64,000 bases of DNA from Candidatus Sumerlaeia bacterium (lineage in GTDB: Bacteria; Sumerlaeota; Sumerlaeia; SLMS01; JAHLLQ01): positions 1 through 64,000 of the forward strand of contig JAHCAW010000009.1 in the NCBI GenBank assembly GCA_019634695.1, written 5' to 3'. Shown in pieces: positions 1 through 21,244 of the stretch (positions within the stretch are counted from its first letter, which is position 1; each line of letters begins with the position of its first letter). The notes under the pieces were generated by a model. That model was not told the DNA's origin and did not search any database. It was given only the letters and a program-made list of their open reading frames with translations. The position numbers and the translations under genes are program-made.

Positions 1-1765
1 TTCTGCGGTCAATCCCCAACGCTGTGGAGACGAGTCCACGATGCCTTCATGTTCTTCGCTCTGTGGATTCTGCGGTCAATCCCCAACTGTGGTGGGCAGC
101 AAGCGATGAGAGCAGATGTTCTTCGCTCTGTGGATTCTGCGGTCAATCCCCAACTGGGACGGCGGTGGTGACGCTGACGCCGTGGGTTCTTCGCTCTGTG
201 GATTCTGCGGTCAATCCCCAACAAATCCGCGGTTCTGTGCGGTTCAGGGTGGGTTCTTCGCTCTGTGGATTCTGCGGTCAATCCCCAACGACCACGCTCA
301 GGCGTCCGTTCCGCGGCGGGTTCTTCGCTCTGTGGATTCTGCGGTCAATCCCCAACGTCGGGAACCACGAACGAACGGAGCAAGGTGTTCTTCGCTCTGT
401 GGATTCTGCGGTCAATCCCCAACGACACTTGGCGTGGTTCGCTCCTGCTGGCGGTTCTTCGCTCTGTGGATTCTGCGGTCAATCCCCAACGGTTGCCTCC
501 GGCATCGCCTCGCACGCGGCGTTCTTCGCTCTGTGGATTCTGCGGTCAATCCCCAACCTCGGCAAGCCCGCCGTCCTCGACCGTGGTGTTCTTCGCTCTG
601 TGGATTCTGCGGTCAATCCCCAACGCCCTCGTGCCGCGTCGCCGCCGGTTGCTTGTTCTTCGCTCTGTGGATTCTGCGGTCAATCCCCAACGAGGGTCTA
701 CCTGGTGCGGGAGAATCTGCCGTTCTTCGCTCTGTGGATTCTGCGGTCAATCCCCAACAAGATCGGCCCCGGTGCCGACTTGGGCGCAGTTCTTCGCTCT
801 GTGGATTCTGCGGTCAATCCCCAACGTGTCCATGCGTCACCTTCCATTGGTTCTGGTTCTTCGCTCTGTGGATTCTGCGGTCAATCCCCAACATTGACCT
901 CGATGGTGCGTGGTCTGGCCGCGTTCTTCGCTCTGTGGATTCTGCGGTCAATCCCCAACTGGTGCGGTGCGATTCCATGTCGGGAGTGTGTTCTTCGCTC
1001 TGTGGATTCTGCGGTCAATCCCCAACTTTGTCATGAGGGTGTGTGCTGGTATCCTTTGTTCTTCGCTCTGTGGATTCTGCGGTCAATCCCCAACGAATGG
1101 GACGGCTGGTGCGTTGGCGGGGGTGTTCTTCGCTCTGTGGATTCTGCGGTCAATCCCCAACGGTCGCTAGCGTTGAGCCGTCATTCGAGCGGTTCTTCGC
1201 TCTGTGGATTCTGCGGTCAATCCCCAACGTCTTTCTCAAGAAGGCTGACGGCTCTCTGGTTCTTCGCTCTGTGGATTCTGCGGTCAATCCCCAACTGGGA
1301 TCGGTGGGGGCTGTATCTGAGTGTGGTTCTTCGCTCTGTGGATTCTGCGGTCAATCCCCAACTGACTCATCGCCCCGACCCGACGACGTGGGGTTCTTCG
1401 CTCTGTGGATTCTGCGGTCAATCCCCAACCCACGTCACCGACAACAACTCCTACGCGAAGGTTCTTCGCTCTGTGGATTCTGCGGTCAATCCCCAACATG
1501 CGTCGGGGGGAGGCGCCTGACGTGTGGGTTCTTCGCTCTGTGGATTCTGCGGTCAATCCCCAACTTCTCCGCCGTGCGGGAAACGGAGTATTTCGTTCTT
1601 CGCTCTGTGGATTCTGCGGTCAATCCCCAACCTCGGGGTCGTCGACGGTGGCAAGATTGACGTTCTTCGCTCTGTGGATTCTGCGGTCAATCCCCAACCG
1701 CCTCCTGCTCGTTGCGGCCACGGCTCTCGTTCTTCGCTCTGTGGATTCTGCGGTCAATCCCCAAC
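1..1765 (-). CRISPR. CRISPR array, leader-proximal end, 26 spacers (cut by left window edge)
   Basis: Twenty-six complete 37-bp repeats plus a 20-bp partial one at the left edge are, as far as I can read, identical throughout. The last repeat is at 1729-1765. On the likely crRNA (minus) strand the repeat begins GTTGGGGATTGACC and ends GCGAAGAAC; GTT/AAC ends are present in both orientations. Of the 26 spacers, 23 are 30 nt and three are 31 nt, and no two look alike. A promoter at 1790-1818 reads into the right end, so the right end is the leader side and the array runs leftwards out of the window. No cas gene is visible, so the type is unassigned; 30-nt spacers with 36-37-nt repeats lacking a strong internal hairpin would suit type II better than type I (inference). 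The long repetitive reading frames across it are not genes. Confidence 0.97.
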
Positions 1766-1789
1766 TTTTCTCCGCTTTGCTCCGTAGAT

Positions 1790-1818
1790 AGTATATCATA
1801 CAGAAAGCGACGTTGCAA
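1790..1818 (-). promoter_or_regulatory. CRISPR leader promoter, sigma70-like with extended -10
   Basis: Read on the minus strand there is a TTGCAA -35 (1813-1818), exactly 17 bp, then TGATATACT (1790-1798), which is a TATACT -10 with an extended TGn element. A start near 1783 would give about 18 nt of leader before the first repeat. The surrounding 1766-1856 stretch is clearly AT-richer than the genes around it, as CRISPR leaders usually are. This element fixes the transcription direction of the array as leftward. Confidence 0.75.
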
Positions 1819-1856
1819 GCCCAAACGGTGTTTCGCTATTTCTTTGTCTTCTTCGC

Positions 1857-1872
1857 GGTTTCACGTGAAACA
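1857..1872. promoter_or_regulatory. parS-like ParB binding site
   Basis: The 16 bases GGTTTCACGTGAAACA match the bacterial parS consensus TGTTTCACGTGAAACA at 15 of 16 positions; only the first base differs. The site sits 39 bp upstream of the -35 of the CRISPR promoter. A perfect copy lies at 20419-20434, and a complete parAB pair is in the window, so a functional ParB nucleation site is likely. Confidence 0.85.
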
Positions 1873-1885
1873 GGCAATCGGTGCG

Positions 1886-1902
1886 GCGGGCGGGACGCCC
1901 GC
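1886..1902. repeat. Short GC-rich palindrome, possible REP-like element
   Basis: GCGGGC and GCCCGC flank GGGAC to form a small hairpin between the CRISPR leader and the next gene. A GC-rich element of this kind recurs in intergenic DNA of several high-GC environmental genomes (from memory). The rest of 1903-2030 shows no gene and only a modest ribosome-binding site for the gene at 2031. Confidence 0.35.
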
Positions 1903-2030
1903 GCTCCCTTCGAGCAGCCGCGGCGGGAGCCAACCGGGCGGGCGGGAAAGGCGCTTGAGTCGCAGGGGCGCGCGGGGCACGATGCAGCGCGTCAACACCT
2001 GACCGCACGGCAACGGGAGCACACGGCACC

Positions 2031-2930
2031 ATGGCAGCAGCACACACGATGGGCGTCTGGATCACGGATGGATCGCTGGTGGAGTGGACCGACACGGTGG
2101 GGCTGGAGGCGGCGTTCCCGACGGGGCGGTGGCCGGAGGTGGTGGCCGGGGCGCTGGGGGGCGGAGGGCTGGACGCGCGGCTGGAAGGGATCGTCGACGA
2201 GGCCGTGGCCGTGGGCGGCGCCCAAGTGGCCTGGCGCGACGGTGGGCTGGACGTCGTGGCGGAATGGGTGGCGTTGTTTGACGCGCCGCTGGCCGCGATG
2301 GACGACGTGGGACCGGCCACGCCGTGCGTCGTGCAGGGAATGATCGAGGGCATGTGGCTGGGCGAGCTGGCGCGCGAGGGCGAGGTGGCCTGGCGCGCGG
2401 CGGCGGGCGGCAACAACGTGGTGGCGCGCGGACGCGGAATCGCGACAACGCTCGGCGCGTTGGCAACAGGCGACGAGGGGCTGGCGGAGGCGCGCGCGAC
2501 GGCGTACGTGCCGATGCTGGGCGGCGGCGGACGCGCGCACAGCGTGGCCGGCGCGGACCTGGCGCGGCTGCCCGTGGTGGAGTTGGCGCGGGCCGTGTGG
2601 AAGTGGAATCGCGCGCACCCGGAGGTGGACGTGCGCGGCGTGCATTTCGGCGCGGCGGGCGAGATGGCGGCCTATGCCGCGTTGCCGGCGGCGGCGGGCG
2701 CGCGACGCGCCCACCAGGCCTTCCTGCCGCGCTACCTGCGGCGAATGCTGGAGCTGTGTCCGCGCGACGCGCGCGAGGTGGCCGACGAGGTGCGCGCGGC
2801 GATGTTCCGCGAGGCGATCGCGCGCGGCGAAGCGGCCCGCCCGGGCGTACCGATCATCCTGACCGTCACCGACGCGGACGGCCGCGTCGTCGGCGAAGGC
2901 GCCCTGATTGTGAAGGAGGAGGAGCGGTGA
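2031..2930 (+). CDS. Hypothetical protein, 299 residues
   Basis: I do not recognise this protein. It is soluble by eye: no signal peptide, no membrane helix, and Ala/Gly/Val-rich with many acidic residues. The frame is clearly coding because third codon positions are almost all G or C. The last third has helical, Arg-rich stretches, and the C-terminus (about 275-295, IILTVTDADGRVVGEGA) looks like a beta strand-turn-strand. The ATG at 2031 is preceded by a weak GGGAG. It is the first gene beyond the CRISPR leader and is followed by an intergenic repeat element, so it may be a lone unit. Nothing in it suggests a Cas function. Confidence 0.75.
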   Translation: MAAAHTMGVWITDGSLVEWTDTVGLEAAFPTGRWPEVVAGALGGGGLDARLEGIVDEAVAVGGAQVAWRDGGLDVVAEWVALFDAPLAAMDDVGPATPCVVQGMIEGMWLGELAREGEVAWRAAAGGNNVVARGRGIATTLGALATGDEGLAEARATAYVPMLGGGGRAHSVAGADLARLPVVELARAVWKWNRAHPEVDVRGVHFGAAGEMAAYAALPAAAGARRAHQAFLPRYLRRMLELCPRDAREVADEVRAAMFREAIARGEAARPGVPIILTVTDADGRVVGEGALIVKEEER

Positions 2931-6590: not shown

Positions 6591-7932
6591 GCAGAATCGC
6601 CATGCTGATGCGAAGGTAGACGTAGAGGCCGACGACGTCCATCATGGTGGCGATGAAGGGCCCGGACATGAGCGCCGGGTCCATGCGGAGTTTCTTGAAC
6701 AGCAGGGGCAGCAGCGCGCCGCACAGGTTCGAGATGGTGACGATGGCCGCGAGCCCGAGGCCCACGCAGACGGCGATGAGCGGTTTGTCCGGGGCGACGA
6801 AGAGCACGAGGGGAATCGACAGGATGCCCAGAAGCAGCGCGAGCATGGTGCTGACGGCCATCTCGCGCGCAAGCAGCTTCCATCCATCGGAGATGGCAAC
6901 CTCGCCCGTGGCAATCGCGCGAATCACGAGCGCGGCGGATTGTGTGCCTGTGTTGCCGCCCGTGGCGATCATCACGGGCAGGAAGAGCGCGAGCGCGATC
7001 TCGGCCTGCAGGAAGTCTTCATAGCGGCTGAGCAGCACCGCGCCGCCGGATTCGGCGACCAGCAGCGCGGCGAGCCACGGAACGCGACGCCGAACAAGCG
7101 ACGTCCACCTGGCCGTCAGATACGGATCCTCGGTCGGCAGGACGGCAGCCTGGAGCTGGACGTCCTCGTCGTGCTCGCGTTCGACGATGTCCATGATGTC
7201 GTCGAACGTGACGATGCCCAGCAGCTTGCTGTCGCGATCGACGACGGGCAACGCGATCAGGTCGTACTTCTTGAACAGGTCGGCGGCCTCTTCGCGGTCC
7301 GTCGTGGCCGTCACGGAGATGACCGCCTCCTCCATGACGTCGGCGACGGTGGCATCGAGCGGCGACGTGACGAGTTCGCGCAGACTGACGGTGCCGATCA
7401 GGCGCCGGTCCTGGTCGATCACGTAGAGCGCGTAGACGGTCTCGCGGTTGATGCCGAGGCGACGAATCTTGGCGAGCGACTGCTCGACCGTCATCGCCGG
7501 CTTCAGATAGATGTAGTCGGGCGTCATCGTGCGCCCGACGCTCTCCTCGGGATAATTGAGGAGTGTCTGGGCGACCTGGCGCTCCTCGGGCGAGAGCATC
7601 AGGATCAGGCGCTGGGCGGCCTTGGGCGGCAGTTCCTCGAGCAGTTGCGTGCGGTCGTCCGGCGACATCTCTTCGAGGATGTGCCGAATCTGCTCGCCGC
7701 GTAGCGAATCGAGCAGCGCCTGTTGCTCGGGGAAGTCGAGGTACTCGAAGACCTCTGTGGCGACGTCCTTCGACAAGAGTCGGAAGACGACGACGAGGTC
7801 GCTCTCTTCAAGATCGGAGATGAGTTCGGCGAGGTCGGGAACCGGCAGCTCGCTCAAGGTTTCCTTGAGCTGGCGGAACTGGCGGTTGCGCACCATTTCC
7901 TCGATTTCGGGAAGCAGGAGCCGTCCGAGCAT
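6583..7932 (-). CDS. mgtE: Magnesium transporter MgtE
   Basis: MgtE is a Mg2+-selective channel/transporter of the inner membrane, gated by its cytosolic domains. The 449 residues show the expected order: an N-terminal helical domain (about 1-125), a CBS pair (about 126-250, with VGRTMTPDYI and the second motif PVVDRDSKLLGIVTFDD), a plug helix, then five membrane segments. The pore signature GGNTGTQSAALVIRA is intact. The gene starts at the edge of the putative origin region and converges on the wzt-like gene. No M-box-like leader was recognised upstream. Confidence 0.96.
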   Translation of the reverse strand: MLGRLLLPEIEEMVRNRQFRQLKETLSELPVPDLAELISDLEESDLVVVFRLLSKDVATEVFEYLDFPEQQALLDSLRGEQIRHILEEMSPDDRTQLLEELPPKAAQRLILMLSPEERQVAQTLLNYPEESVGRTMTPDYIYLKPAMTVEQSLAKIRRLGINRETVYALYVIDQDRRLIGTVSLRELVTSPLDATVADVMEEAVISVTATTDREEAADLFKKYDLIALPVVDRDSKLLGIVTFDDIMDIVEREHDEDVQLQAAVLPTEDPYLTARWTSLVRRRVPWLAALLVAESGGAVLLSRYEDFLQAEIALALFLPVMIATGGNTGTQSAALVIRAIATGEVAISDGWKLLAREMAVSTMLALLLGILSIPLVLFVAPDKPLIAVCVGLGLAAIVTISNLCGALLPLLFKKLRMDPALMSGPFIATMMDVVGLYVYLRISMAILLN

Positions 7933-20383: not shown

Positions 20384-21244
20384 ATGAAGCAGGCAGCCGC
20401 CCCCTCCCCCGCCCCGATTGTTTCACGTGAAACATCGGACGGACCTTCGACCCCCGTCACCATCGCGATCATCAACCAGAAGGGCGGCGTCGGCAAGACC
20501 ACCTCCGCCGTCAACGTGGCCGCCGGACTCGCCCTCCGTGGCTACGATACTCTGCTCATCGACCTCGATCCCCAAGGCAACGCCGCGATCTCCCTCGGCG
20601 TCGATCGCTATGCCGAAGGCGTCGGCACCGCACACGACATCCTCCTGCCCCCCCACCGCGCCGCTCCCCCGCTGGCCCTCGGGCCCAACAAGCCCTTCGT
20701 CTACCCAGGGAACGTCTCGCTGATCCGGGCCGATCTCGACCTGCTCAACCTCGGCGAAGCACGCGACCACGCCCTGCGCGATGGACTCGCCGCTCTCCCC
20801 CGCCCCTACGACTTCATCATCCTCGACGCACCGCCCTCCCTTGGTATCCTCACCCTCAACATCCTCATCGCCAGCACCCACGTCCTCATCCCCATCCAGT
20901 GCGAGTACCTCGCCCTCGAAGGGCTCACCATGCTCCTGGACACCCTCGGGGAGATCCAGAAGACCCACCACCCCACCCTCCAGATCCTCGGGTGCCTCAT
21001 CACCATGAGCGACCTGCGCACCAACCTGTCGCAGCAGGTGGTCGCCGATGTCCGCACCCACCTCGGCGACCGGGTCTTCGACACGATGATCCCCCGCACG
21101 GTGCGCCTCAGCGAGTGCCCCAGCCACGGACAATCCATCTTCGACTACGAGCGCTGGGGCGCCGGTGCCCGCAGCTACGACGCCCTCACCGGCGAAATCC
21201 TCCGCCGCCTCGGCAAGCCCGCCAAGAAAGGAGCACCCCGCTGA
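20384..21244 (+). CDS. parA: Chromosome partitioning ATPase ParA (Soj)
   Basis: ParA is the nucleoid-binding ATPase whose gradient moves ParB-parS complexes and thus the origin regions of the chromosome. The 286-residue protein has a deviant Walker A (KGGVGKTT, 33-40), IDLDPQGN, DAPPSLG and the C-terminal IFDYERWGAGARSYDALTGEI segment. The first 25 residues precede the domain and are encoded partly by a parS site: the codons for VSRET are the palindrome itself. The stop overlaps the parB ATG by one base. Confidence 0.97.
   Translation: MKQAAAPSPAPIVSRETSDGPSTPVTIAIINQKGGVGKTTSAVNVAAGLALRGYDTLLIDLDPQGNAAISLGVDRYAEGVGTAHDILLPPHRAAPPLALGPNKPFVYPGNVSLIRADLDLLNLGEARDHALRDGLAALPRPYDFIILDAPPSLGILTLNILIASTHVLIPIQCEYLALEGLTMLLDTLGEIQKTHHPTLQILGCLITMSDLRTNLSQQVVADVRTHLGDRVFDTMIPRTVRLSECPSHGQSIFDYERWGAGARSYDALTGEILRRLGKPAKKGAPR
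20419..20434. promoter_or_regulatory. Perfect parS site inside parA
   Basis: TGTTTCACGTGAAACA matches the parS consensus at all 16 positions. It lies within codons 12-17 of parA, a common place for parS in bacteria. ParB bound here may also autoregulate the operon. Confidence 0.95.

Follow-up and report, generated by a model that had tools for sequence, protein, structure and literature searches.

A probable complete type II-C CRISPR-Cas9 locus of a Candidatus Sumerlaeia bacterium, split by an assembly gap and putatively read from a single leader promoter

A CRISPR array that begins at the very edge of a contig and has no cas genes on its leader side raises two questions: where are its cas genes, and from where are its repeats transcribed? 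The window analysed here, the whole stretch of 64,000 nucleotides, comprises bases 1–64000 of contig C117 of a Candidatus Sumerlaeia assembly (127 contigs, 4.35 Mb, 85.9% complete). Base 1 of the window is base 1 of the contig, and the contig end therefore truncates the array. We consider it very probable that the array belongs to a complete type II-C CRISPR-Cas9 locus divided by an assembly gap, with a single leader promoter as the proposed source of its transcript. Articles given by PMC number are cited from excerpts of their text.

The array and its other half

The original prediction had placed a CRISPR array at 1–1818, with identical 37-bp repeats that form no strong hairpin, and each of these points holds. 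There are 26 exact copies of GTTCTTCGCTCTGTGGATTCTGCGGTCAATCCCCAAC (37 bp) at 51–1765, with 25 complete spacers (22 of 30 nt and three of 31 nt), preceded by the last 20 nt of one more repeat (1–20) and a 30-nt spacer (21–50). The repeat folds weakly (−6.4 and −4.3 kcal/mol, one value per strand). The features of the window are as follows.

1–1765, minus strand (crRNA sense): leader-side part of the CRISPR array, with the strand taken from the leader promoter and the tracrRNA strand
1729–1765, minus strand: putative first transcribed (‘extra’) repeat, a perfect copy by its sequence
1766–1870, minus strand: AT-rich leader, 44% GC against 67% for the whole window
1790–1818, minus strand: putative leader promoter, by its match to the sigma-70 consensus
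1790–1826, minus strand: candidate diverged promoter-bearing repeat (37 nt), by weight-matrix rank and likeness of its 5′ end
2031–2930, plus strand: host gene on the leader side, with a homologue in the sister genome G001

Across the 127 contigs, the repeat (with three or fewer mismatches) is present on two, C117 and C106, with 40 copies on the latter. Like C117, C106 starts inside an array, after which come cas2, cas1, cas9 and a tracrRNA candidate.

C106 2753–3112, minus strand: cas2 (NCBIfam TIGR01573, E 1.9e-18)
C106 3109–4029, minus strand: cas1 (NCBIfam TIGR03639, E 1.2e-64)
C106, start codon taken at 7105, minus strand: cas9, 1036 aa (NCBIfam TIGR01865, E 4.4e-187)
L022 about 7118–7215, plus strand: tracrRNA candidate, by anti-repeat match, hairpin and T run

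The two contigs together hold at least 66 repeats, and the terminal repeats are perfect at both array ends. One contig end holds the first 20 nt (5′) of the repeat and the other its last 20 nt (3′), with a 3-nt overlap, so the join may be one single repeat, for a total of 67 repeats and 66 spacers; the gap may also hide further units. The join itself is inferred from synteny rather than from sequence overlap. In G001, a genome of the same genus without a Cas9 match, homologues of the outer flank of C106 (C33:111833–114122, 62% identical) and of the window gene at 2031–2930 (C33:114352–115215, 67% identical) are neighbours, about 230 bp apart, and we therefore take C106 and C117 to be two halves of a single locus. 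The alternative of two arrays that share this repeat, one beside the cas genes on C106 and an orphan in the window, would agree with the lack of any C106–C117 overlap of 10 nt or more, but both contigs start mid-array, C106 offers only a cas side and C117 only a leader side, and the outer flanks are adjacent in G001, so that this reading is very improbable.

On the reading of one divided locus, cas2, cas1 and cas9 lie at the array's other end, beyond the left edge of the window, which is where cas genes had been expected; the genome's only Cas1 and only Cas9 match are on C106, in keeping with the claim that the leader side has none. An orphan or cas-less array was considered and rejected in view of the cas genes on C106 and the flank synteny with G001. 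G001 appears, from its sequence, to carry the site without the CRISPR-Cas locus. Its synteny with our genome picks up 462 bp past the start codon of cas9 on one side and, on the other, at position 2056 of the window. The interval between the flank homologues (G001 C33:114122–114352, L063) gave no blastn alignment with the window leader or the tracrRNA side, and no target-site mark was readable in it. A small ORF of 65 aa (L022:7569–7766, plus strand, start MKFIRISPSEVLNLDQVARVETYM) lies where the G001 synteny resumes. The case is instructive for scans of this kind: what looked like an array without cas genes at the edge of a contig turned out to be half of a complete Cas9 locus.

Subtype, tracrRNA candidate and proposed processing

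Cas9, Cas1 and Cas2 all score above the NCBIfam cut-offs, with PADLOC in agreement; Cas1 reaches 218 bits against the type II (NMENI) family TIGR03639 (cut-off 120) and groups with II-C rows in a Cas1 tree. The nearest solved chain to the Cas9 is 6kc8, the Cas9 of Neisseria meningitidis (E 7.2e-68); the other nearest chains are Neisseria Cas9 proteins as well. RuvC and HNH nuclease motifs were found (LGLDVGSNSV, IVVELARE, FDIEHILP and RHHAIDA), and the cas9 frame is open further upstream, across the tracrRNA stretch. Between the ends of the G001 synteny, beside cas9, cas1, cas2 and the array, there is no room for csn2 or cas4 at the usual sizes of these genes, their absence being judged from the available space, with the gap within the array unsequenced. 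Since only cas9, cas1 and cas2 are found and space for csn2 or cas4 is lacking, we assign the locus, which had been left without a type, to II-C on its NCBIfam matches and gene set.

In window orientation the order is tracrRNA (minus), cas9-cas1-cas2 (plus), array (minus-strand transcript) and leader from 1766. The tracrRNA candidate and the array thus share a strand, opposite to that of the cas genes, and the leader promoter and tracrRNA strand indicate that the array runs opposite to the cas operon. Both this orientation and this gene set are normal for II-C (PMC3936727).

The anti-repeat of the tracrRNA candidate is complementary to the repeat at 28 of 37 positions, ungapped, the best in L022 outside the array (maxima of 20–22 in 20 shuffles). 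It lies upstream of cas9 on the opposite strand, and after it come a GC hairpin and a T run; AACAAG, after the anti-repeat, is also present in the best candidates of 8 of the 28 relatives described below. The candidate had no Rfam match at gathering scores. We also considered pairing strength as a sign of a greater need for RNase III, and dropped it because the repeat:anti-repeat duplex, at −55.2 kcal/mol, ranks only seventh among 29 loci searched alike.

Gene content, order, strands, the tracrRNA candidate and the adjacency in G001 are features of the sequence itself, from which we infer the steps of transcription and processing. As the repeats are without the 3′-end extended −10 box of their relatives, the array would be read from one leader promoter into one long pre-crRNA. 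This would pair with tracrRNA and be cut by RNase III, a gene for which is encoded in the genome; the crRNA would then be loaded on Cas9 and invading DNA cleaved.

The leader promoter and the repeats of relatives

Promoters here are consensus matches. The leader promoter, on the minus strand, consists of a −35 box TTGCAA (1818–1813), a 17-nt spacer and a −10 box TATACT (1795–1790) with TG at 1798–1797, making an extended −10 of TGATATACT at 1798–1790; 24 nt separate the end of the −10 from the first repeat. The ideal 17-bp spacing and extended −10 that had been described are thus confirmed element by element. The promoter scores 11/14 in a scan of the 150-nt leader, which 1 of 500 single-base shuffles equalled. 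This places it at the top of 21 leaders, the window's included, by one point (the next score 10 and 10; 8 of the 28 relatives, with under 80 nt of leader sequence, are left out). Nominal promoters in relatives' leaders score 10/14 (L118 and L056) and 9/14 (L023), and were matched by 10, 19 and 19 of 500 shuffles, respectively. Within window positions 1–2100 there are four sigma-70-like sites against 0.4 expected: the leader promoter, two minus-strand sites in the array that combine the repeat's CAGAAT with a −35 at a spacer edge and have no TG, and one plus-strand site in a spacer.

About 40 bp upstream of the −35 box, GGTTTCACGTGAAACA at 1857–1872 differs at a single position from the consensus of parS, the 16-bp site of ParB. 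Exact 14-bp parS cores occur twice in the genome, on the leader side and at 20420–20433, at the start of a gene that is parA-like by its motif. In G001 the two copies are found 48 bp from each other, at C33:16449 and 16497; the CRISPR-less site, at 114 kb, is on this contig too. ParB loading beside the CRISPR promoter may influence array transcription.

Repeats of II-C arrays are reported to carry their own promoter, with spacers added at the last repeat (PMC12080349 and PMC12638026; repeat promoters also in PMC7038990 and PMC4283603). For comparison, relatives were taken from Cas9/Cas1 matches in 19 of 99, 8 of 39 and 35 of 386 genomes (counts that include the window's own) and from three named contigs; those with a usable array gave 29 distinct II-C repeats, the window's among them. 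The last nine bases of each were scored against TGNTATAAT, out of 8. All 28 other repeats are 36 nt long and score 4–8, with 22 of the 28 at 5 or more, a score reached by 3.7% of shuffled repeats (4 or more, 13.9%); only two, those of L023 and L100, have a last base other than T. The window repeat, at 37 nt, scores 3/8, the lowest of the 29, a contrast of degree given that six others stand at 4/8. The extended −10 usual at the 3′ end of II-C repeats is therefore not found in it, nor is a TGn box matching at 4/6 or better present on the crRNA strand of the C106 or the C117 part of the array.

Two repeats were dropped from the set: that of L086, which is II-A-like, and that of L087, a 34-nt core with uncertain ends (6/8). 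There was no array in L028/L071, L082, L096, L105 or L107. Nine further loci were parsed, of which seven had no array, L114 was the L087 locus again (6/8) and the last was L130. L130 (G226, array from 1818) has a type II-family Cas1 (27.6% identical) and a 36-nt repeat that scores 2/8 in the sense opposite to cas1, also without a −10 end; it is not counted as II-C, and were it II-C, the window repeat would be second lowest of 30.

The Cas1 tree places the window within a clade of seven rows (support 99/98). The other six, all from its class, have repeats scoring 4–7, and the two nearest, L049 and L061, score 5 and 6. L049 (GTTGTGGATTGACCGC) and the window (GTTGGGGATTGACCGC) share the 5′ part of the repeat and differ in its 3′ half; the tracrRNA candidate matches the window's new 3′ half. 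With the window repeat at 3/8 against 4–7 for its clade, the most economical explanation is that the window lineage has lost its repeat promoters, which we consider probable. As far as consensus matches go, the unusual point is the combination of a clear leader promoter with a promoter-less repeat.

An ordinary II-C locus, in which the repeats are still weak promoters and the leader promoter is merely an extra one, would resemble Campylobacter jejuni, where a putative leader start accompanies repeat promoters (PMC4283603). The weak promoter could be TTGACC with AAGAAC as −10, and indeed TTGACC is kept at repeat positions 9–14, matches a −35 at 5/6 and lies 17 nt from the last hexamer. It could equally be the mid-repeat CAGAAT, 4/6 to a plain −10, with a spacer-borne −35; the C106 and C117 parts have three such sigma-70-like sites between them, all in crRNA sense. 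These three sites cover just 3 of 66 repeats, however, and the terminal −10 score and the lack of an extended −10 in crRNA sense anywhere in the arrays also count against this reading, which we regard as unlikely. Some transcription starts inside the array are possible from the CAGAAT sites, as is a non-sigma-70 promoter within the repeat.

We thus retain the leader promoter as the probable single source of the transcript, and with it the claim of a leader on the right and leftward transcription, which the leader promoter and tracrRNA strand both favour. The original prediction had named cas genes and a second leader at the left end as signs of transcription from that side: the cas genes are there, on C106, and no promoter is found in the 150 nt before the array on the cas2 side, where the best site scores 5/14 and was equalled by 434 of 500 shuffles. 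Transcription that starts beside cas2 and follows the window's plus strand, with the right-hand promoter a product of chance, has a parallel in the cas2-side leader proposed for Riemerella anatipestifer II-C (PMC5006608), but is hardly credible here: apart from that low score, cas2 and the array are separated by no more than some 50 bp, the tracrRNA candidate pairs with the minus-strand transcript (its hairpin and T run fix its own strand), and most relatives' repeats, read in the same sense, begin GTT and finish in a −10-like box.

Origin of the promoter, acquisition end and known systems

How might a single leader promoter have arisen? One tentative answer, which we think doubtful as it stands, is that the promoter was lost from the copied repeat and that the oldest, leader-end repeat survives in diverged form, at 1790–1826, as the only promoter. 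The idea is post hoc, formed after the sequence had been seen and with four registers tried. The stretch starts GTTTGGGCTTG, which is near the GTTGGGGATTG of the repeat and has its −35 in the matching register; the 5′ ends agree at 9/11 positions, or 6/8 without the −35 letters, and the frequencies of such matches among window positions are 1.3e-4 and 0.005. Over the whole length it matches the window repeat at 13/37 (register 37), and among relatives' repeats at best 24/36 (L049, one gap). With a 28-repeat weight matrix and one inserted base it comes first of 124,395 positions, these being the window positions outside the array (18.9 versus 15.4 bits), and third without the insertion; with a six-repeat clade matrix it is first with the insertion (17.6 versus 17.5) and eleventh without. 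When the full repeat model was applied to the leader stretch, 0–19 of 400 shuffles were as good, varying with model, background and gap; this rose to 18–253 of 400 with the −10 masked and 49–236 of 400 with both boxes masked, and under some masks the best position falls elsewhere in the leader. Since the stretch does no better than shuffles once the boxes are masked, likeness outside the promoter boxes is not established, and the evidence that the leader promoter is a remnant of an old promoter-bearing repeat is suggestive. In mainly non-subscription literature we found no account of a II-C array with a diverged first repeat as sole promoter, and the excerpt of PMC7708072 holds nothing on the repeat-promoter question.

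If the remnant idea is true, an array in which every spacer had its own promoter came to depend on the leader promoter alone, and RNase III processing would be essential again. Were acquisition still at the cas2 end, the newest spacers would lie more than 4 kb from the promoter; had it moved to the leader end, this would be a II-C system with reversed polarity. In-repeat promoters and 3′-end spacer acquisition are II-C oddities reported together (PMC12080349, PMC12638026). A relative lacking repeat promoters would be a natural test of whether the two depend on each other, and it also bears on why II-C arrays are hard to orient. II-C may hold subgroups with different acquisition ends (PMC12638026), and the window locus is a candidate for one.

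A cas2-side integration motif derived from the flanks of the 28 relatives is weak; on the window system it scores 1.84 at the cas2-side flank and −2.51 on the leader side, with 95% of background below 1.95. Among relatives' end repeats (the first three and last four were viewed), mutated ones occur at the distal end only, in 8 of 28 loci. By eye, the stretch from cas2 to the array in several II-C relatives seems to contain an inverted repeat, which may terminate the array transcript or serve in acquisition; the corresponding 58 nt of the window system fold at −12.2 kcal/mol.

Matching spacers to viral contigs, proposed earlier as a check, gave no target. Against 50,697 phage records the window array part yielded eight records (best E 0.04), none of them a target; the C106 part yielded 212 at E of 10 or less, of which one (E 0.07) is left at 0.2 or less. 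Of six 20-nt spacer ends searched for exact matches in viral_contigs, three from each array end out of about 66 spacers, five had no match; the sixth hit two viral contigs, where the seed was accompanied by just 3 of 10 other matching bases, and was rejected as chance. No PAM could be inferred from these limited target searches.

The closest parallels are the two nearest relatives. G007 (L049) has the same cas9-cas1-cas2-array order as the window system; G018 (L061), of the same class, has cas1-cas2-array as in the window system, its cas9 running off the contig. Their Cas1 proteins are 55–56% identical to the window system's, their spacers are 29–30 nt and the 5′ part of their repeats is almost identical to the window's. 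They differ in having 36-nt repeats with −10-like ends (5 and 6 of 8), where the window has 37 nt, another 3′ half and 3/8, and in their leaders: that of L061 scores 6/14 and that of L049 is too short for a score, compared to 11/14 in the window.

In type II-A systems, pre-crRNA is processed by RNase III with tracrRNA. Like the mode proposed for the window system, II-A transcription gives one long pre-crRNA from the leader side (PMC12080349). The window system differs from II-A in that it has no room for csn2, its array runs against the cas genes and its Cas1 sits among II-C rows. The Cas9 of the window system is of the same family as that of Neisseria meningitidis. The II-C system of that species is like the window's in gene set and in an array against the cas genes (PMC3936727), but has a promoter in each repeat and can dispense with RNase III (PMC7038990, PMC5006608). 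In CRISPR1 of R. anatipestifer, also II-C, there are, as in the window, no recognised repeat promoters and a putative leader promoter; its repeats are 47 bp and its leader lies between cas2 and the array, whereas the window promoter is at the far end (PMC5006608). A II-C array without recognised repeat promoters has thus already been described, and such absence alone is not new. Processing in the window system would stand closer to II-A than to the repeat-by-repeat transcription of Neisseria and Campylobacter.
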